DNA of 64,000 nt. Origin: Streptomyces durocortorensis (lineage in GTDB: Bacteria > Actinomycetota > Actinomycetes > Streptomycetales > Streptomycetaceae). The notes beneath the pieces are model-generated. The model was not told where the DNA came from. It made no database searches and worked only from the letters and a program-made list of their open reading frames with translations. Where the stretch lies: positions 6,262,001 to 6,326,000 of the forward strand of contig NZ_CP134500.1 in NCBI RefSeq assembly GCF_031760065.1. The letters are read 5' to 3'. Shown here piece by piece: positions 23,002 through 29,349 of this stretch (positions are counted from its first letter, which is position 1; each line of letters opens with the position of its first letter). Made by a program: the position numbers and the translations under genes.

Positions 23002-24222
23002 GTGCCGCTCGACGTCGTCATCTGCGAACCCCTGCGCACCCCGATCGGCCGGTTCGGCGGGGCGTTCGCCCAGCAGACACCGGCCGCGCTGGCCGCACGC
23101 GTCATCGCGGAGATCGTCACCCGCACCGGCATCGACCCCGACCGGGTCGACGAGGTGATCCTCGGCCACGCCTACCCGACCAGCGAGGCCCCCGCCATCG
23201 GCCGCGTCGCCGCCCTGGACGCCGGACTGCCCACCACGGTCACCGGCTCCCAGATCGACCGCCGCTGCGGCTCGGGGCTCCAGGCGGTCCTGGACGCGGC
23301 GATGCAGATCCGCGCCGGGTTCAGCGACGTCGTGATCGCGGGCGGCGTCGACGTCATGAGCGGCGCCCCCTACTACACCCACGACGGACGCTGGGGAATC
23401 AAGGGCCCCGGCCTCCAGCTCCACGACGCCCTCGCCCGGGGCCGGGTCACCGCGGGCGGCCTCAACCACCCGGTCCCCGGCGGCATGATCGAGACGGCGG
23501 AGAACCTGCGCCGGGAGTACGGCATCAGCCGCGCCGACCAGGACGCCCTGGCCCTGCGCTCGCAGCAGCGGGCCGCGCGCGCCGCCGCCGAGGGGCGCTA
23601 CGACGCGGAGACCGTCCCCGTCACCGTACGCACCCGCAAGGGCGAGACCGTCGTCACCGCCGACGAACACCCCCGCCCCGACACCACCGCCGAACAACTC
23701 GCCGCCCTCCGCCCGGTGATGACCAAGTCCGATCCGGAGGCCACCGTCACGGCGGGCAACGCCAGCGGCCAGAACGACGCGGCGGCCGCCTGCCTGGTCA
23801 CCAGCGCCGGAACCGCCGAACGCCTCGGCCTCACCCCGCTCGTCCGCCTGGTCTCCTTCGCCCGGGCCGGGGTCCCCGCCGCGACGATGGGCATCGCACC
23901 CGTAGCCGCCACCCGCACCGCCCTCGACCGGGCAGGTCTCTCGCTCGCCGACCTCGACCTGATCGAGCTGAACGAGGCCTTCGCCGCCCAGGTCCTGTCC
24001 TGCACACGGGAGTTGGACCTCGGCGAGAAGGACCACGAGGAGCGGATCAACGTCAACGGCTCGGGCATCTCGCTCGGCCACCCGGTCGGCGCCACCGGAG
24101 CCCGTATCCTCGCCACCCTCACCCGCGAACTCCACCGCCGCGAGGCCCGCTACGGCCTGGAGACGATGTGCATCGGCGGCGGCCAGGGCCTCGCGGCGGT
24201 CTTCGAACGGATCGCGGCCTGA
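23002..24222 (+). CDS. Thiolase (acetyl-CoA acyltransferase, 3-oxoadipyl-CoA thiolase-like)
   Basis: A 406-residue thiolase. The acylated Cys is in DRRCGSGLQAVLDAA near residue 90. The second substrate-handling His is in NVNGSGISLGHPVGATGARI near 355, and the proton-shuttling Cys is in the CIGGGQGLAAVFE tail. It cleaves 3-oxoacyl-CoA to acetyl-CoA and a shortened acyl-CoA. Neighbouring CoA-transferase and hydroxyacyl-CoA dehydrogenase genes support a degradative role, for example for adipyl or oxoadipyl intermediates. GTG 23002 has GAAGGAAGG upstream and lies 14 bases after the LysR stop. Confidence 0.9.
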   Translation: MPLDVVICEPLRTPIGRFGGAFAQQTPAALAARVIAEIVTRTGIDPDRVDEVILGHAYPTSEAPAIGRVAALDAGLPTTVTGSQIDRRCGSGLQAVLDAAMQIRAGFSDVVIAGGVDVMSGAPYYTHDGRWGIKGPGLQLHDALARGRVTAGGLNHPVPGGMIETAENLRREYGISRADQDALALRSQQRAARAAAEGRYDAETVPVTVRTRKGETVVTADEHPRPDTTAEQLAALRPVMTKSDPEATVTAGNASGQNDAAAACLVTSAGTAERLGLTPLVRLVSFARAGVPAATMGIAPVAATRTALDRAGLSLADLDLIELNEAFAAQVLSCTRELDLGEKDHEERINVNGSGISLGHPVGATGARILATLTRELHRREARYGLETMCIGGGQGLAAVFERIAA

Positions 24223-24374
24223 GGGGATTCGGGGACATCACGGCCTCACCGGCCGACCGGCGCACCAGCATCCGGCGCGGCCGGGCCCGGCGACGGCACG
24301 GCCCCACGGCTCCCGGCCATCATCCACCGATCGGCCCGCACCCCGGGAGAAACCGGTCACCGCACACGACGAAA

Positions 24375-24410
24375 GGCCCGGCCGGACAGTCCCCGCTGTC
24401 CGGCCGGACC
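24375..24410. terminator. Terminator between thiolase and long chaplin genes
   Basis: A 15-base stem with one mismatch (GGCCCGGCCGGACAG with CTGTCCGGCCGGACC) and a 6-base loop, followed on the plus strand by TCGTTTT and flanked on the other by CTTTCG. The genes converge here, so it can serve both directions. Confidence 0.75.
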
Positions 24411-24437
24411 TCGTTTTCACGCAGTCGCGGTGGTGAT

Positions 24438-25163
24438 TCAGTCCCGCGCGTCACGGGTACGGCGCATCAGCACCGCCCCGCCGAGCAGCAGCGCGGCGCT
24501 CGCACCGGCGGCCAGTCCCAGATCGGCGGCACCGGTGTCGGCCAGGTGTGCACCCGGGGTGTTGGAGCCGGGCGTACCGGAACCGGGGGTGTCGGCACCA
24601 GGAGTGTCCGTGCCGGGGGTGTCGGTCGGAGGCATGTCCACGGGCGGCTCGTCGACCGGGGGCTCGTCGACCGGGGGCTCGTCCACGGGCGGCTCGTCGA
24701 CCGGCGGCTCATCTACGGGCGGCTCGTCGACCGGGGGCTCGTCGACCGGGGGCTCGTCCACGGGCGGCTCGTCGACCGGCGGCTCATCTACGGGCGGCTC
24801 GTCGACCGGGGGCTCGTCGACCGGGGGCTCGTCCACGGGCGGCTCGTCGACCGGGGGCTCGTCGACCGGCGGCTCATCTACGGGCGGCTTGTCCACAGGC
24901 GGGTGGTCGTGCTTCGGGCCGTCGGCGTTCACGCACTTGTTGCCGAAGGCCGGGTTCAGCAGGGCGATCACATTGACCGTGTTGCCGCACACGTTGACGG
25001 GGATGTTCACCGGAGCCTGCAGGGTGTTGCCCGAACCGACGCCCGGCGAGCCGACGGCAGCGCCTTCGGCCGACGCGTCGGCGTGTGCGGTGCCGCCGAC
25101 CGCGGCCAGGAGACCTGAGGCGGCCGCCACGACGATGAAGCTCTTGTTCAAGACTTGTCGCAT
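24438..25163 (-). CDS. chp: Long chaplin with single chaplin domain, Pro-Val-Asp repeat spacer and sortase signal
   Basis: A 241-residue secreted surface protein. An N-terminal signal peptide ends near AHA-D. One chaplin domain follows at about residues 43-80, ending PVNVCGNTVN...NPAFGNKCVN with the two conserved cysteines. Next come 18 tandem PPVDx pentapeptides (16 of them PPVDE), a Thr/Pro-rich linker, and a C-terminal LADTG sortase motif with hydrophobic helix and Arg tail. Long chaplins are covalently fixed to the wall of aerial hyphae and anchor the hydrophobic layer of short chaplins. Described long forms usually have two chaplin domains; this has one. Confidence 0.92.
   Translation of the reverse strand: MRQVLNKSFIVVAAASGLLAAVGGTAHADASAEGAAVGSPGVGSGNTLQAPVNIPVNVCGNTVNVIALLNPAFGNKCVNADGPKHDHPPVDKPPVDEPPVDEPPVDEPPVDEPPVDEPPVDEPPVDEPPVDEPPVDEPPVDEPPVDEPPVDEPPVDEPPVDEPPVDEPPVDEPPVDMPPTDTPGTDTPGADTPGSGTPGSNTPGAHLADTGAADLGLAAGASAALLLGGAVLMRRTRDARD
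24631..24900 (-). repeat. 15-base tandem repeat encoding PPVDx, with 75-base higher-order period
   Basis: Eighteen contiguous 15-base units (consensus GGCTCGTCGACCGGG on the plus strand) encode the proline-rich spacer of the long chaplin. Unit variants recur in the same order every five units (24646-24720 and 24721-24795 are nearly identical). That pattern shows recent block duplication and predicts copy-number variation between strains. There are no spacers, so this is not a CRISPR array. Confidence 0.9.
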
Positions 25164-25513
25164 TACTTGTTACTTGCCCTTCCCTCACACATGCGCGCTG
25201 GACGACTGCCATAACGACCGAGGGCTGTGGGGGAAACTTGGAGTGGCGTGAAAATTTTGCCATCACCCGGATGGCTGGCGTGTACGGATCCCGCACTTCC
25301 CGGTCCACGGGTAAAGAAAAACGATTCCGCCGGTACGAACGGGCGGACGTACGAACGGAGGTGGGGCGATGTGTGCGAATCCGTGCGGCGGTCGCGCTCC
25401 GGTGCCGCACGCCCCCGTGCCCGGCATTCGGGTGAATGGGCGGAACCAAACGCCGGGCGCCGAGTTGATCAGGATGCTCCGCCGCGGGGCAACCAGTGCG
25501 AGAAGGGTTAATC
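25164..25513. promoter_or_regulatory. Divergent control region between long chaplin and first rodlin
   Basis: A 350-base gap with no gene. GGGAAGGG, the chaplin ribosome site, is at its left edge and AGAAGGG, the rodlin site, at its right. A sigma-BldN-like promoter for the rodlin lies at 25441-25468. An AT-rich patch, GTGAAAATTTTGCC near 25248, stands out in this GC-rich DNA. I see no matching promoter for the chaplin side. Confidence 0.5.
25441..25468 (+). promoter_or_regulatory. Sigma-BldN-like promoter of rodlin 1
   Basis: CGGAAC, 16 bases, AGTTGA, ending 45 bases before the rodlin start. The same arrangement occurs before the second rodlin and a near copy before the third. It resembles the CGTAAC-N16-CGTTGA type that I recall for BldN-controlled genes, and chaplin and rodlin genes are known BldN targets in S. 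coelicolor and S. venezuelae. Confidence 0.5.
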
Positions 25514-25915
25514 GTGATCAAGAAGGTTCTGGCTACGGGCGCTGTCGCCGCCTCCGTCCTCGGCCTCGGCGCCACGCAGGCCATGGCGATCGCCAACGAC
25601 GGGGGCACCACCTCGATCAACGGCAACGGCGCTTCGCAGTCCTTCGGCAACGCCGAGACCCACGGTGACTGGAGCCCGCAGTTCGGCCTGGTCCAGGGGT
25701 CGCTGAACAAGCCCTGTGTCGGTCTTCCGCTGAAGGGCAACGTCGGTTCGCTCGTCGGCGTCGTGCCGGTCACCGTCCAGGACATCAACGTCCTGTCCTC
25801 CCCGCAGAACCAGCAGTGCACCGAGAACTCCACCCAGGCCAAGGGCGACGAGGCTCTGTCGCACATCCTGGACGACATCCCGATCCTCTCGGGCAACGGT
25901 GCCGGCAACGGCTGA
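25514..25915 (+). CDS. rdl: Rodlin (Rdl) protein, copy 1
   Basis: A 133-residue secreted protein. A signal peptide of about 25 residues ends at AMA. The mature part starts AIANDGGTTSINGNGASQSFG and has the rodlin hallmarks: [32 protein letters not shown] and [20 protein letters not shown]. Two cysteines are conserved. Rodlins organise chaplin fibrils into the rodlet pattern on aerial hyphae and spores. The start is GTG 25514 with AGAAGGG upstream. This copy and copy 2 are closest to each other. Confidence 0.9.
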   Translation: MIKKVLATGAVAASVLGLGATQAMAIANDGGTTSINGNGASQSFGNAETHGDWSPQFGLVQGSLNKPCVGLPLKGNVGSLVGVVPVTVQDINVLSSPQNQQCTENSTQAKGDEALSHILDDIPILSGNGAGNG

Positions 25916-25929
25916 TACGGCTGAATACC

Positions 25930-25974
25930 CGGGTCCGGGCCCTCGGAGTTCCTCCACCGAGCGGCCCGGGCCCG
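25930..25974 (+). terminator. Terminator after rodlin 1
   Basis: A stem of about 16 base pairs with small imperfections (CGGGTCCGGGCCCTCGG with CCGAGCGGCCCGGGCCCG) begins 15 bases after the stop and is followed by GCCGCTTTT. It separates rodlin 1 from the short chaplin. Confidence 0.7.
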
Positions 25975-26158
25975 CCGCTTTTCCCGGGAATGTGCGGTGG
26001 CTTTCTGGGCGCCTCCATTCCCGTAACCCACGCCGAATCGACGTTGCGTCATTCGGGCGGTTCTCCGGGATTCCGCTTCCCGGGCAGTTTCGATTCCGGC
26101 CGTTCATCGTTACGAATGACAGCGCCGGAGTCACGAGCGATCAATATCGGGCTCGGGC

Positions 26159-26177
26159 GGCACGAAAGTCGTGACCG
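26159..26177 (+). promoter_or_regulatory. Conserved GGCACG-N5-CGTGACCG element before the short chaplin
   Basis: This element ends 31 bases before the short chaplin start. The same motif, with N4, ends exactly 31 bases before the neighbouring secreted protein gene (26631-26648). The GGCACG/CGTGACC halves form an imperfect dyad. It may be a regulator site or a core promoter used by both genes. The 293-base gap it lies in holds nothing else beyond the rodlin 1 terminator. Confidence 0.45.
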
Positions 26178-26208
26178 CGCCGGACTCCGCCGAGGAAAGG
26201 GACACAAA

Positions 26209-26442
26209 GTGAAGTACACCAAGGTTGCCGCCGTCGCCGCCGGAACGCTCATGGCGATGGGCACCGCCGCGCCGGCCATGGCCGACTCGGGCGCCGAGGC
26301 CGTTGCCGCGCACTCCCCGGGCGTGCTGTCCGGCAACATCCTCCAGGCCCCGATCCACGTTCCGGTCAACGTCTGCGGCAACACCGTCAACCTGGCCGGT
26401 GCGCTGAACCCGGCCTTCGGCAACACCTGCATCAACCAGTGA
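26209..26442 (+). CDS. chp: Short chaplin
   Basis: A 77-residue secreted protein. The signal peptide ends at AMA near residue 26, leaving a chaplin domain of about 50 residues. It has the family pattern GNILQAPIHVPVNVCGNTVN, then LAGALNPAFGNTCIN, including the two cysteines that form an intramolecular disulfide in ChpE-H type proteins. Short chaplins assemble into amyloid-like fibrils at the air interface. The start is GTG 26209, preceded by GAGGAAAGGGAC. Divergent from no gene; followed by its own terminator. Confidence 0.93.
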   Translation: MKYTKVAAVAAGTLMAMGTAAPAMADSGAEAVAAHSPGVLSGNILQAPIHVPVNVCGNTVNLAGALNPAFGNTCINQ

Positions 26443-26480
26443 ACAACTGACCGGCCGGGCGGACAGCCCGGGACCGGTCG

Positions 26481-26513
26481 GCCCCGGACGGCAACCGCCG
26501 TCCGGGGCCTTTT
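26481..26513 (+). terminator. Terminator after the short chaplin
   Basis: A perfect 12-base stem (GCCCCGGACGGC with GCCGTCCGGGGC), AACC loop and CCTTTT tail, 38 bases after the stop. This is a classic intrinsic terminator. Confidence 0.85.
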
Positions 26514-26630
26514 CCTTGAACGGCCGCCGTCGACGGCAGAGAAAAGATGACGCCGCACAGTTTCCCGAATGCGGCCTGATCGTTGTCCAAGGAGAAAGCG
26601 GCAGAAGTCACAGGTAAAGAAAGCTTGTGC

Positions 26631-26648
26631 GGCACGGGAACGTGACCG
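26631..26648 (+). promoter_or_regulatory. Conserved GGCACG-N4-CGTGACCG element before the secreted orphan
   Basis: Second copy of the element seen before the short chaplin, at the same 31-base distance from the start codon. The match in sequence and position suggests common control of the two genes, which sit either side of the strong chaplin terminator. Confidence 0.45.
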
Positions 26649-26679
26649 AAACAGATGCCGCGCAGAAGGGAACACCGAA

Positions 26680-26970
26680 GTGAAGTACGCGAAGACCGCC
26701 GCGATCGTTGCCGGTTCCGTGGCCGCCCTCGGAACGGCTGCCCCCGCCTTCGCCGTTACTGACGCCATGGCCCCCAACTTCAGCCTCGACCGGGGCCTCA
26801 ACCAGGTCGTGGCCAGCGCCCCGCAGGTAGTGGACCCGCTGGTCGACACCGTCGGCGACACCACCGAGACGGTCTCGAAGGACGGCACGGTCGGCAAGCT
26901 GGCCGGTGAGGCCACCGGCGCGGCCGGAGGCGCCGCCCCACTGCTCGGCGGAGTGCCCATCGGCGGCTGA
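26680..26970 (+). CDS. Small secreted cysteine-free protein in the chaplin-rodlin locus
   Basis: A 96-residue protein starting at GTG 26680 (GAAGGGAACACC upstream). Its first 25 residues, VKYAKTAAIVAGSVAALGTA then APAFA, form a signal peptide that closely resembles that of the neighbouring short chaplin. The mature 71 residues have no cysteine and no chaplin or rodlin motif. They contain a Val/Asp/Thr-rich amphipathic middle (QVVDPLVDTVGDTTETVS) and a Gly/Ala-rich end. I do not recognise the family. Location and shared upstream element suggest a third type of surface-layer component or helper. Confidence 0.75.
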   Translation: MKYAKTAAIVAGSVAALGTAAPAFAVTDAMAPNFSLDRGLNQVVASAPQVVDPLVDTVGDTTETVSKDGTVGKLAGEATGAAGGAAPLLGGVPIGG

Positions 26971-27098
26971 CCGCCGCGGAACGGCAGCCCTCTCAGCGCT
27001 TTCGCCGCCCCCCCATTCCTCCGGTTCCGACTCCTCCCGTGCCGGCCTCGCATTCTCCGTGAACGCACGGCGGGAATAACACCGTTCGAGTGAATGGG

Positions 27099-27126
27099 CA
27101 TAACCAGACCCGCCGAGCCGAGTTGA
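27099..27126 (+). promoter_or_regulatory. Sigma-BldN-like promoter of rodlin 2
   Basis: CATAAC, 16 bases, AGTTGA, ending 51 bases before the rodlin 2 start. The sequence around it (GTGAATGGGC before, GCAGAATGCTCC after) is close to the rodlin 1 region, so the upstream region was duplicated with the gene. Confidence 0.5.
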
Positions 27127-27177
27127 GCAGAATGCTCCGGACAGGCGGGCACACGTTTCATCCCAGAAGGGTTTTTC

Positions 27178-27588
27178 ATGATCAAGAAGATTATGGCCTC
27201 GGCGGCCGTCGCTGCCTCGGTCGTCGGTGCCTCCGCTGCGGCCGCCCCGTCCGCCATGGCGATCGCCAACGACGGCGGCACCACGTCGATCAACGGCAAC
27301 GGCGCCTCTCAGGCCTATGGCAACTCCGCGACCCACGGCGACTGGAGCCCGCAGTTCGCGCTCATCCAGGGCTCGCTGAACAAGCCCTGCATCGGCCTGC
27401 CCGCCAAGGCGAACATCGGCTCCCTCGTCGGCCTCGTGCCCGTCACGGTCCAGGACATCAACATCCTGTCCTCCCCGCAGAACCAGCAGTGCACCGAGAA
27501 CTCCACCCAGGCCAAGGGTGACGAGGCTCTGTCGCACATCCTGAACGACATCCCGATCCTCTCGGGCAACGGCGCCGCCAACAACTGA
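27178..27588 (+). CDS. rdl: Rodlin (Rdl) protein, copy 2
   Basis: A 136-residue secreted rodlin starting at ATG 27178 with AGAAGGG upstream. The signal peptide ends at AMA; the mature start AIANDGGTTSINGNGASQAYG and the patches GDWSPQFALIQGSLNKPC and [20 protein letters not shown] are nearly the same as copy 1. Differences cluster in the signal peptide and in GLPAKANIGSLVGLVPV. It follows the secreted orphan but has its own promoter-like block and terminator, so it is probably a separate transcript. Confidence 0.92.
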   Translation: MIKKIMASAAVAASVVGASAAAAPSAMAIANDGGTTSINGNGASQAYGNSATHGDWSPQFALIQGSLNKPCIGLPAKANIGSLVGLVPVTVQDINILSSPQNQQCTENSTQAKGDEALSHILNDIPILSGNGAANN

Positions 27589-27611
27589 CGCCGCACAGAC
27601 CGACCCACGCG

Positions 27612-27665
27612 GGGCCAGTCCCCCCGTCCGGCGAACACTCTTCGCCGGACGGGACGGGCTGGCCC
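27612..27665 (+). terminator. Terminator after rodlin 2
   Basis: An inner perfect 13-base stem (CCCGTCCGGCGAA, 27623-27635, with TTCGCCGGACGGG, 27641-27653) is extended by an outer GGGCCAG/CTGGCCC pairing. It begins 24 bases after the rodlin stop and ends before TTCGTCG. Confidence 0.8.
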
Positions 27666-27781
27666 TTCGTCGTGCGAGGGCGCGTCCGGCGCCGTGTCCG
27701 ACGGGCGCGGGCGGTGCGGGGGTTGGGCCGGATGCCGTAGCACCGGCTGACGGTCCGGCCCCGTCCGGGTAGAGCCTCTCC

Positions 27782-27979
27782 ATGGACCCGTACGGCAGCC
27801 AGCCCCCGCAGCGCAGAGAGCAGCCCCCACCGAGCGGCACACCGATCTTCGACCGGCTCGTCGCCGAGTGGCGGGCGGCCGGATGCGACCCCGTTCCGCA
27901 AGCACCTCAGCAGCCGACCGCACACCGCGGCGGCTTCGTCCCGGCGGCCCGCACCTCGGACGAGGTGGCCGAGAACTGA
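27782..27979 (+). CDS. Small hypothetical protein
   Basis: A 65-residue hydrophilic protein. The first half is rich in Pro, Gln and Arg; the middle FDRLVAEWRAAGCDP could form a short helix. It has no signal peptide or membrane segment, so it would stay in the cytoplasm, unlike its neighbours. Third positions are strongly G/C. It lies between rodlins 2 and 3, with an independent start and no obvious coupling. Function unknown. Confidence 0.5.
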   Translation: MDPYGSQPPQRREQPPPSGTPIFDRLVAEWRAAGCDPVPQAPQQPTAHRGGFVPAARTSDEVAEN

Positions 27980-28027
27980 GCAGCGGCGTCGACCTTGCGC
28001 CGGATCGAACCCATTTGAGTGGTACTG

Positions 28028-28056
28028 CGCAACCGATCGCGGTCCGCGTCGGTTGA
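28028..28056 (+). promoter_or_regulatory. Sigma-BldN-like promoter of rodlin 3
   Basis: CGCAAC, 17 bases, GGTTGA, ending 42 bases before rodlin 3. The spacing is one base longer than in copies 1 and 2 and the surrounding sequence has diverged, yet both hexamers are kept. Confidence 0.4.
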
Positions 28057-28098
28057 TCAGTACGTTCCACACCGGGACGCTCCGAAAGGTGAAGCTTG

Positions 28099-28506
28099 AT
28101 GAAGAAGATGATGGCCGGCGCTGCAGTGGCCGTGTCCATGCTCGGTCTGTCCGCGGTCGCGGCTCCCGCGGCCATGGCGATCGGTAACGACGGTGGCACC
28201 ACCACGGTCAACGGCAACGGCGCCGAGTCGAAGTTCGGCAACGCTGTGACCAAGGGTGACTGGAGCCCGCAGACCCAGGTTGTTCAGGGCACCCTGAACA
28301 AGCTCTGCATCGGCCTGCCCGCCAAGGTCAACGTCGGCTCGCTCGTCGGCGTCGTGCCGGTCACGGTCCAGGACATCAACGTTCTGTCCAACCCGCAGAA
28401 CCAGCAGTGCGCCGACAACTCCACCCAGGCCAAGGGCGACGAGCCGCTGTCGCACATCCTGGACGACATCCCGGTGCTCTCGGGCAACGGCGTCGGCAAC
28501 AACTGA
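28099..28506 (+). CDS. rdl: Rodlin (Rdl) protein, copy 3
   Basis: A 135-residue rodlin, starting at ATG 28099 (GAAAGGTGAAGC upstream; an in-frame TTG lies one codon before). The mature start is [21 protein letters not shown]. It has [22 protein letters not shown] and [20 protein letters not shown]. It differs from copies 1 and 2 at many positions but keeps both cysteines and the GNGVGNN end. Three rodlins in one locus is one more than in S. coelicolor, where RdlA and RdlB are described. Confidence 0.92.
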
Positions 28507-28516
28507 CGTAGCGAGC

Positions 28517-28552
28517 ACGGGCGGTCCTGAGGTCACCCTCCGGACCGCCCGT
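28517..28552 (+). terminator. Terminator after rodlin 3
   Basis: A perfect 11-base stem (ACGGGCGGTCC with GGACCGCCCGT) and 14-base loop, starting 11 bases after the stop and followed by CCTCGTTT. Confidence 0.75.
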
Positions 28553-28589
28553 CCTCGTTTCCGCGCTTCCGCGGCACGCCGCACGACCG

Positions 28590-28653
28590 GCACCGCCGCA
28601 CGACGAGGCCCACCACTCCACGGGGGGTGGTGGGCCTCGCCGTGCGGCGGTGC
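28590..28653. terminator. Very long hairpin between rodlin 3 and the DUF5949-like gene
   Basis: A 27-base-pair stem with a single mismatch (arms 28590-28616 and 28627-28653) and a 10-base loop lies between convergent genes, 8 bases from the DUF5949-like stop. It is a strong two-way terminator in addition to the one at 28517. Confidence 0.8.
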
Positions 28654-28660
28654 GGGGCGG

Positions 28661-29161
28661 TCAGCCCAGGGAAAGGACCGGGAGCAGACAGTGTGCGGAG
28701 GTGCGGACGACCTCCTCGTCGGCCGCGAAGGCCCGCAGCTGGTCCTCGCTGACCGGCTGCCCCGGCACGGCCTCCGGCCACGGGGCGGTGGCGAACATGC
28801 CGTACACCTGGCCCTGTGCCTGGGCGGCCGCCAGCCACTCGGCGGGGGCGGGGTACTGCGCCTTGAGGTGAGGCAGCGTCAGGACGGCCTGGCCCGCCTG
28901 GACGAGGAGCTTCGCCTGGATGCCGGGGGACGTAGCCGCGTCCTGGATCGAGCCGCCGACCTGGAGGCCCGCACGCTCCAGCGCGCTGCGCAGGGCCTCG
29001 CGGCCGACCTCCGGGCCGTCCTGCCCGTCGCCCAGCGAATAGGAGAGGAGGAAGGCGGTGTCCTGGTCGGCGTCGGGCTGCCGGCCGCTCCAGCCGATCA
29101 GAATCTGGGTGCCCAACTGGGCCGGTGTGAACGTGCCGGTGGAGGTCTGGGGTGTGGTCAT
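28661..29161 (-). CDS. DUF5949-like protein
   Basis: A 166-residue acidic cytoplasmic protein. The pattern LGTQILIGWSGRQPDADQD, AFLLSYSLGDGQDGPE and PAEWLAAAQAQGQVYGMFATAPWPE resembles a Streptomyces family that I recall as DUF5949, whose role is unknown. No catalytic motif or membrane segment is apparent. The start ATG 29161 gives the family-like N-terminus (MTTPQTSTG). It ends next to the long hairpin shared with the rodlin locus. Confidence 0.7.
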   Translation of the reverse strand: MTTPQTSTGTFTPAQLGTQILIGWSGRQPDADQDTAFLLSYSLGDGQDGPEVGREALRSALERAGLQVGGSIQDAATSPGIQAKLLVQAGQAVLTLPHLKAQYPAPAEWLAAAQAQGQVYGMFATAPWPEAVPGQPVSEDQLRAFAADEEVVRTSAHCLLPVLSLG

Positions 29162-29251
29162 GCTCGGCACCCTAACGGCCATGGACCAGCAGCTATGCAT
29201 GCGTATCACCCGATCGAGGGAGATCTGGGGTAACTCCGGCGAAAAAAACTG

Positions 29252-29282
29252 TTGGCGCCGCTCCCGGGGGCCGGTCTAGGGT
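29252..29282 (+). promoter_or_regulatory. Probable promoter upstream of the leader ORF and rsgA
   Basis: TTGGCG, 19 bases, TAGGGT fits a vegetative Streptomyces promoter with a slightly long spacer. A start near 29289 would leave about 60 bases before the small ORF at 29350. Confidence 0.45.
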
Positions 29283-29349
29283 GAACACCGTTCCGCATGC
29301 CGCAGTGACGCGTGCGGCAGGCAAGAGGAATCAGGAGGTGAGGACATTG

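Follow-up and report, generated by a model that had tools for sequence, protein, structure and literature searches.

A family of small cysteine-free secreted-type proteins encoded beside chaplin and rodlin genes of Streptomyces, candidate accessories of the aerial sheath

The window, by which we mean the whole stretch of 64,000 nucleotides that was analyzed, belongs to a 7.3-Mb genome with Streptomyces-type genes. Pfam and NCBIfam matches define the gene order as a long chaplin on the minus strand followed by a rodlin, a short chaplin, the gene of a 96-residue protein, and two further rodlins. The long chaplin (24438-25163, minus strand) and the short chaplin (26209-26442, plus strand) match PF03777 at E values of 1.2e-27 and 8.4e-27, respectively. 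All three rodlins, located on the plus strand at 25514-25915, 27178-27588 and 28099-28506, match NF041022 at 4.2e-64 or better, the second of them at 1.9e-68. The open reading frame of the 96-residue protein (26680-26970, plus strand) is preceded by the short chaplin and followed by the second rodlin, as a preliminary description made from the sequence had stated.

The neighborhood has a few features of its own. In the long chaplin, a single chaplin-domain match is followed by 18 PPVD repeats and by a terminal LADTG that resembles a sorting signal, although the sorting-signal models scored below cut-off. A 65-residue open reading frame at 27782-27979 (plus strand), between the second and third rodlin and without a signal-peptide-like start, has counterparts of 40-98% identity in 46 of 61 loci carrying close relatives of the 96-residue gene, in none of 60 distant loci, and in none of 15 loci of a second genus (these sets are defined below). 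Relatives of the gene at 28661-29209 (minus strand), which we take to encode a DUF5949 protein, occur in 47 of the 61 and in 28 of the 60 distant loci, which suggests an old conserved neighborhood. A scan of positions 24000-29300 with Rfam yielded three sub-threshold matches, which were taken as chance. The long chaplin of the window differs from the long chaplins of S. coelicolor, which are described as two-domain proteins (PMC5650626).

The 96-residue gene starts with GTG and ends with TGA, included in the coordinates. A ribosome-binding-site-like GAAGGGA at 26665-26671 (plus strand) is invariant in 34 aligned upstream sequences. The product reads VKYAKTAAIVAGSVAALGTAAPAFA, followed by VTDAMAPNFSLDRGL, and ends with APLLGGVPIGG; it contains no cysteine. 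Its layout is a charged beginning, then a run of hydrophobic residues and a cleavage-type site AFA, after which come 71 residues. Judged from these features, the first 25 residues (26680-26754, plus strand) form a signal peptide that ends in AFA, with A23 and A25 invariant in two alignments. The mature part (26755-26967, plus strand) has an N-terminal SLxxG motif, a variable middle and a C-terminal LLGGxPxGG. The resemblance of its start to that of a chaplin, pointed out earlier, was borne out: the neighboring short chaplin begins with VKYTK and has a signal peptide of the same type. In a comparison with 39 gapless orthologues of 96 residues, the median pN/pS was 0.42 (range 0.25-0.63), with medians of 0.21 in the signal peptide and 0.47 in the mature part. 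The open frame, the homologues and the purifying selection are the reasons for counting 26680-26970 as a real gene, which on this sequence evidence it is.

Scans of the protein against Pfam and NCBIfam, the HMM search that had been proposed as a check, gave nothing above threshold (best E values 0.097 and 0.22, respectively, far below the cut-off), and a sequence search of the PDB returned a single chance-level match (E 0.23). The families named by the Pfam and NCBIfam matches, stomoxyn, a tape measure protein, the S-layer protein PS2, TrbC and AIDA, were dismissed, as they were far below the cut-off or concerned single members only. The absence of cysteine and of chaplin and rodlin motifs from the mature part, noted at the outset, was upheld by the sequence as regards cysteine and by the lack of any PF03777 or NF041022 match as regards the motifs. 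AlphaFold, supplied with 119 sequences, predicted short helices only and no confident fold, with a mean pLDDT of 51.5 and a pTM of 0.16; because of the low pLDDT the model was not used for a fold search. The prediction is consistent with a protein that either is disordered or folds only upon assembly.

A protein search with the 96-residue sequence revealed 140 homologues at E<=1e-3, and Streptomyces was the sole organism given among the matches listed (120 of the 140) in those names that state one. Among 295 sampled Streptomyces genomes, a profile of close relatives matched in 225 and a wider profile in 253, both at E<=1e-3. However, a chaplin signal peptide encoded in the window's own genome reaches an E value of 3.9e-5 with the wide profile, and therefore only matches at E<=1e-11 were counted as family, which left 211 of the 295 genomes; the 42 genomes with matches between 1e-3 and 1e-11 (9 with a rodlin, 33 without) were excluded from the positives. 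Scored with the wide profile, 7997 candidates from a database included 1137 proteins at E<=1e-3. When 200 genomes sampled from the bacterial family were searched, 80 genomes in 2 of 17 genera gave matches at E<=1e-5; these were 50 of 64 Streptomyces genomes and 30 genomes of a second genus.

Since signal peptides by themselves can mislead, they were removed by a simple rule and the mature parts of five clades were compared alone by hhalign. All 10 pairs of clades matched, with probabilities of 74.8-98.7% and E values of 2.6e-5 to 1.7e-16, whereas the 10 comparisons of family mature parts with rodlins or chaplins all remained at a probability of 0.4% or less. Of 211 family mature parts, 1 contains cysteine, as opposed to 46 of 46 chaplin and 36 of 36 rodlin mature parts. 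By the profile comparisons, the mature parts form one family, unrelated to chaplins or rodlins. The family is unnamed in Pfam and NCBIfam. Among papers retrieved from the open PubMed Central library, none names such a family in its title or at the beginning of its abstract; the sigma-BldN study of Bibb and others 2012 may list the gene, and the novelty of the family is limited to that extent. The excerpts of the PubMed Central literature consulted contain no expression, proteomic or mutant data tied to it. A further secreted-type protein of about 100 residues in the same genome (L003:1495-1797), downstream of what is presumably an adenosine-deaminase-like gene, ends with LLGGLP...IPLGG and might be a distant paralogue; the match was too weak for it to be included in the family (E 0.02 at first and 0.3 when the wide profile was used), and its genomic place is a different one.

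The linkage of the family to chaplin and rodlin genes was analyzed in three sets of loci. The first comprised 61 named loci found by the sequence of the 96-residue protein alone. Rodlins were present in 61 of 61 and chaplins in 60 of 61 of the fetched stretches, the one exception starting at a contig end. The 60 distant loci were taken from weaker matches, from the top down with skips, before their context was known. Within about 6 kb, a chaplin was found in 59 and a rodlin in 30 of them; the remaining locus (L135) displayed neither on 12 kb or on two further flanks. In the second genus, chaplins and rodlins surrounded the gene in all 15 loci fetched out of the 30 matching genomes, usually with a rodlin first, then a short chaplin, a further chaplin, the family gene and a rodlin. 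By our own estimate, a random gene would lie within 6 kb of a chaplin or rodlin in roughly 1% of cases, chaplin and rodlin genes occupying about four places in the window's genome. A divergent clade with MKNLKA- or MKTLKA-type starts (L222, L223, L224, L225 and L227) forms an exception: none of its five loci lies beside chaplins or rodlins, and its hosts are Streptomyces genomes in which no rodlin was detected. Three other members from rodlin-less Streptomyces have a chaplin nearby. The linkage is thus conserved in two genera, with the divergent clade excepted, and this genomic association is a direct observation. At L115 and similar distant loci, the gene is flanked on one side by a short chaplin and on the other by what we take to be a tyrosinase-like gene, with another chaplin beyond; in our view this order resembles that of SCO2699-SCO2705 in S. 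coelicolor. One report names SCO2704 among secretion or membrane genes that are overexpressed when argR is mutated, a mutant with elevated chaplins and rodlins as well (PMC5839063).

The preliminary description had also claimed a positioned upstream element common to the 96-residue gene and the short chaplin. Such an element is present and is larger than described. Both genes are preceded by a promoter-like box and by an inverted repeat. The box, GTTTC-N16-CGTT, occupies 26560-26584 (plus strand; -120 to -96) upstream of the 96-residue gene and 26087-26111 (plus strand; -122 to -98) upstream of the short chaplin; the long chaplin is preceded by another copy, the third (25213-25237, minus strand). 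In its loose form (spacer 14-19) the box occurs at 84 sites in the 7.3-Mb genome as compared with 28 for a reversed-pattern control, and is therefore not specific by itself. The strict form GTTTC-N15-TCGTT, read by eye, has four genomic sites, three of which are the boxes of this locus and the fourth of which lies inside a coding-like frame. Outside the locus there are 17 exact N16 sites, 8 within a coding-like frame and 9 not within a long one, so that the box alone identifies no regulon.

In a survey of the 200 bp upstream of starts for GTTTC-N14..18-CGTT, the box was found at 40 of 61 close and 56 of 60 distant family members and at 12 of 14 members of the second genus, where the script did not locate one of the 15 start sites; the other 21 close members are without a box of the exact form. 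Nine further members, including the five of the divergent clade and that of L135, all have it, two with a spacer of 17, and 6 of the 9 show no chaplin or rodlin match on the fetched stretch. The divergent clade, although unlinked, thus keeps the box as GTTTC-N16/17-CGTT. In the named loci the box also occurs at 87 of 117 chaplin starts, in contrast to 0 of 300 rodlin starts (some rodlins were counted repeatedly, with three queries) and to 0 of 117 starts belonging to four further types of gene; the reversed pattern was absent from all sets. Short chaplins were classed by pattern as MKY/MKF type, MSRI type and the rest. The box is present at MKY/MKF-type short chaplins in 35 of 50, 11 of 11 and 7 of 11 cases in three sets, at MSRI-type short chaplins in 0 of 70 and 0 of 4, and at the remaining short chaplins in 6 of 13, 11 of 32 and 0 of 6. 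Long chaplins carry it in the named loci (42 of 53) and lack it elsewhere (0 of 13 and 0 of 13). The possibility that the box is a general chaplin element was rejected because the MSRI-type chaplins are without it. Most of 30 rodlin upstream regions share a GTTGRTCAG-like stretch instead, and the sheath genes seem to fall into two promoter classes, with the box at MKY/MKF-type short chaplins and the 96-residue family and not at MSRI-type chaplins or rodlins.

According to three papers, chaplin and rodlin genes are direct targets of sigma-BldN in S. venezuelae (PMC4125116, PMC4255298, PMC12096830). The published sigma-BldN site at bldM reads CGTAAC-N16-CGTTGA (PMC2375139). The box has the same N16 spacing and the CGTT core, but its -35 half, GTTTC, agrees with CGTAAC only in part. 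On these similarities we incline, by a small step, to the view that the box is read by sigma-BldN or a close relative. A single simple regulon common to all these genes would be too strong a conclusion, because the box is confined to a subset of the chaplins and occurs at no rodlin examined.

The inverted repeat, CGG-CACG-loop-CGTG-A-CCG, lies about 50 bp before the starts of the 96-residue gene (26630-26648, plus strand) and of the short chaplin (26158-26177, plus strand; recognized by eye and also folded). It lies in the presumed 5' leader and may represent a hairpin or a protein site. For the leader alignment, 34 sequences were selected from the window and among the named loci, and 33 of them were distinct. 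In the 33 distinct leaders, the seven pairs of the repeat at 26630-26648 are paired in 230 of 230 cells, and one pair is compensatory (GC in 24, AU in 9). RNAalifold favors another fold. With a single two-sided change and a differing predicted fold, an RNA element was not adopted and the feature was kept as a conserved inverted repeat.

The presence of the family correlates with that of rodlins. A rodlin match at E<=1e-15 is present in 210 of the 295 Streptomyces genomes; 182 genomes contain both, 29 the family only, 28 a rodlin only and 56 neither. The odds ratio of 12.6 has a Fisher p of 1.4e-18, which is uncorrected for phylogeny and, because species are not independent, only indicative. 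Among the 64 Streptomyces genomes sampled for the bacterial family, the raw counts are 41 with both, 9 with the family only, 6 with a rodlin only and 8 with neither (p 0.006), and 5 of the 9 rodlin-less matches represent the unlinked divergent clade. In the second genus, 29 of 30 genomes carrying the family have a rodlin match. At the level of genera, rodlin matches extend to 12 of 17 (at E<=1e-10, a part of them not reaching the NCBI cut-off), as compared with 2 of 17 for the family (E<=1e-5). The correlation is accordingly not strict and the link is loose.

From placement, the shared box and co-occurrence with rodlins, the family very probably belongs to the same developmental gene set as the chaplins and rodlins. 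The preliminary description had gone further and assigned the protein to the hydrophobic sheath in a structural or assembly-assisting role; of this, membership of a secreted-type protein in the chaplin and rodlin gene set is supported, and the position in the sheath and the structural or assembly role stay at the level of inference. It is nevertheless probable that the protein is located at the aerial surface. The shared promoter-like box, the signal and the conserved ends lead us to favor an accessory sheath protein acting on assembly; the 96-residue protein represents an unnamed family of small, cysteine-free secreted-type proteins with a mature part of about 7 kDa, and an accessory function of this kind is a reading that we hold to be rather likely. 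It would be made when aerial hyphae form, together with a subset of the chaplins, be exported via the Sec route, and stay in the extracellular space, where it would be largely disordered and would join chaplin fibrils as an accessory protein. The conserved ends, SLNGG near the N-terminus and LLGGLPLGG at the C-terminus, might serve as contact motifs through which it tunes chaplin and rodlin assembly. An action on that assembly rather than elsewhere has a chance that we put slightly below even. Expression, location and mechanism are what we infer from the association.

Properties of the mature parts bear on this reading and on its alternatives. Of 211 mature parts scanned, 207 have an SLNGG-like (SLxxG-like) motif near the N-terminus and 197 a terminal LLGG-type (GG) motif, and the middle region and the charge vary across the family, with net charges of -9 to +7. 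A charge range of this width between members is unusual for a fixed structural part and counts against one. The clade means of GRAVY extend from -0.34 to 0.22. Such roughly neutral to mildly hydrophilic sequences of variable charge and middle region, together with the low predicted order, would also suit a filler or humectant in soluble form, occupying the water-filled space that separates the wall of aerial hyphae from their chaplin layer; such a protein would be secreted, disordered and co-expressed without being bound to fibrils. A mere filler has no need of two conserved ends, and we regard this alternative as unlikely. The short secreted form with its conserved ends and variable middle would likewise fit the precursor of a small secreted signal or of an antimicrobial peptide, with LLGGLPLGG as the product released at aerial growth, a stage at which extracellular signals are known in Streptomyces. 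This explanation is improbable: many species share one and the same C-terminus, whereas a peptide signal tends to be specific to its species, and no obvious receptor or exporter appears in the open reading frame lists, in which the neighbors are not systematically annotated. Improbable as well is a chimera in which the 5' end of a chaplin gene was copied before unrelated coding DNA, to be expressed with the chaplins without a role in the sheath, for although the neighboring short chaplin has a similar promoter box, a similar leader repeat and a similar signal peptide, the mature parts constitute one conserved family in two genera, with purifying selection in the window's clade, and the distant loci have the box at 56 of 60 family members but at a minority of chaplins, so that copying may have run the opposite way.

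The accessory sheath protein may also be considered in a bolder form. The aerial sheath is usually described as composed of chaplins, rodlins and SapB. The family could tentatively be viewed as a third class of sheath protein beside chaplins and rodlins, expressed from its own promoter class along with chaplins of the same signal-peptide type, and with a disordered mature part and conserved ends that guide the chaplin fibrils into the rodlin-ordered rodlet layer, a proposal that we advance as speculative. Such a class may have vanished unnoticed in deletions that took intervening genes along with the chaplin and rodlin cluster. In one study, chpDFG and rdlAB were replaced together with the intervening genes (PMC12096830), and deletions of this kind may have removed a further component, which deserves a warning. 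If the proposal is true, a third family would have to be added to the known components of a coat that serves as a model of functional amyloid. The family also bears on how accessory proteins order the rodlet layer, which is an open question; a section heading in one paper calls the role of RdlA elusive (PMC5314377).

Among known sheath proteins, the chaplins (PF03777) are likewise small secreted Streptomyces proteins encoded at the same loci, and a subset of them has the signal-peptide type and the promoter-like box of the family. The chaplin domain carries paired cysteines, and chaplins are characterized by amyloid fibrils that form where air and water meet. In contrast, the 96-residue protein has neither cysteine nor a PF03777 match, and its mature part aligns with chaplins at an hhalign probability of 0.1-0.4%. 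The rodlins RdlA and RdlB (NF041022), also small and secreted and characterized by their requirement for the paired rodlet pattern, share many of the loci and are correlated in their presence with the family; the 96-residue protein differs from them in the absence of an NF041022 match and in an hhalign probability of 0.1-0.4%, and the rodlins, unlike the family, contain cysteine in all 36 mature parts compared and have no box at the starts examined. SapB/RamS and NepA are further small proteins or peptides that occur outside the cell during aerial development. They are set apart from the family by their descriptions, RamS being a lanthionine peptide that is modified and encoded in an operon of its own and NepA the product of a separate gene.
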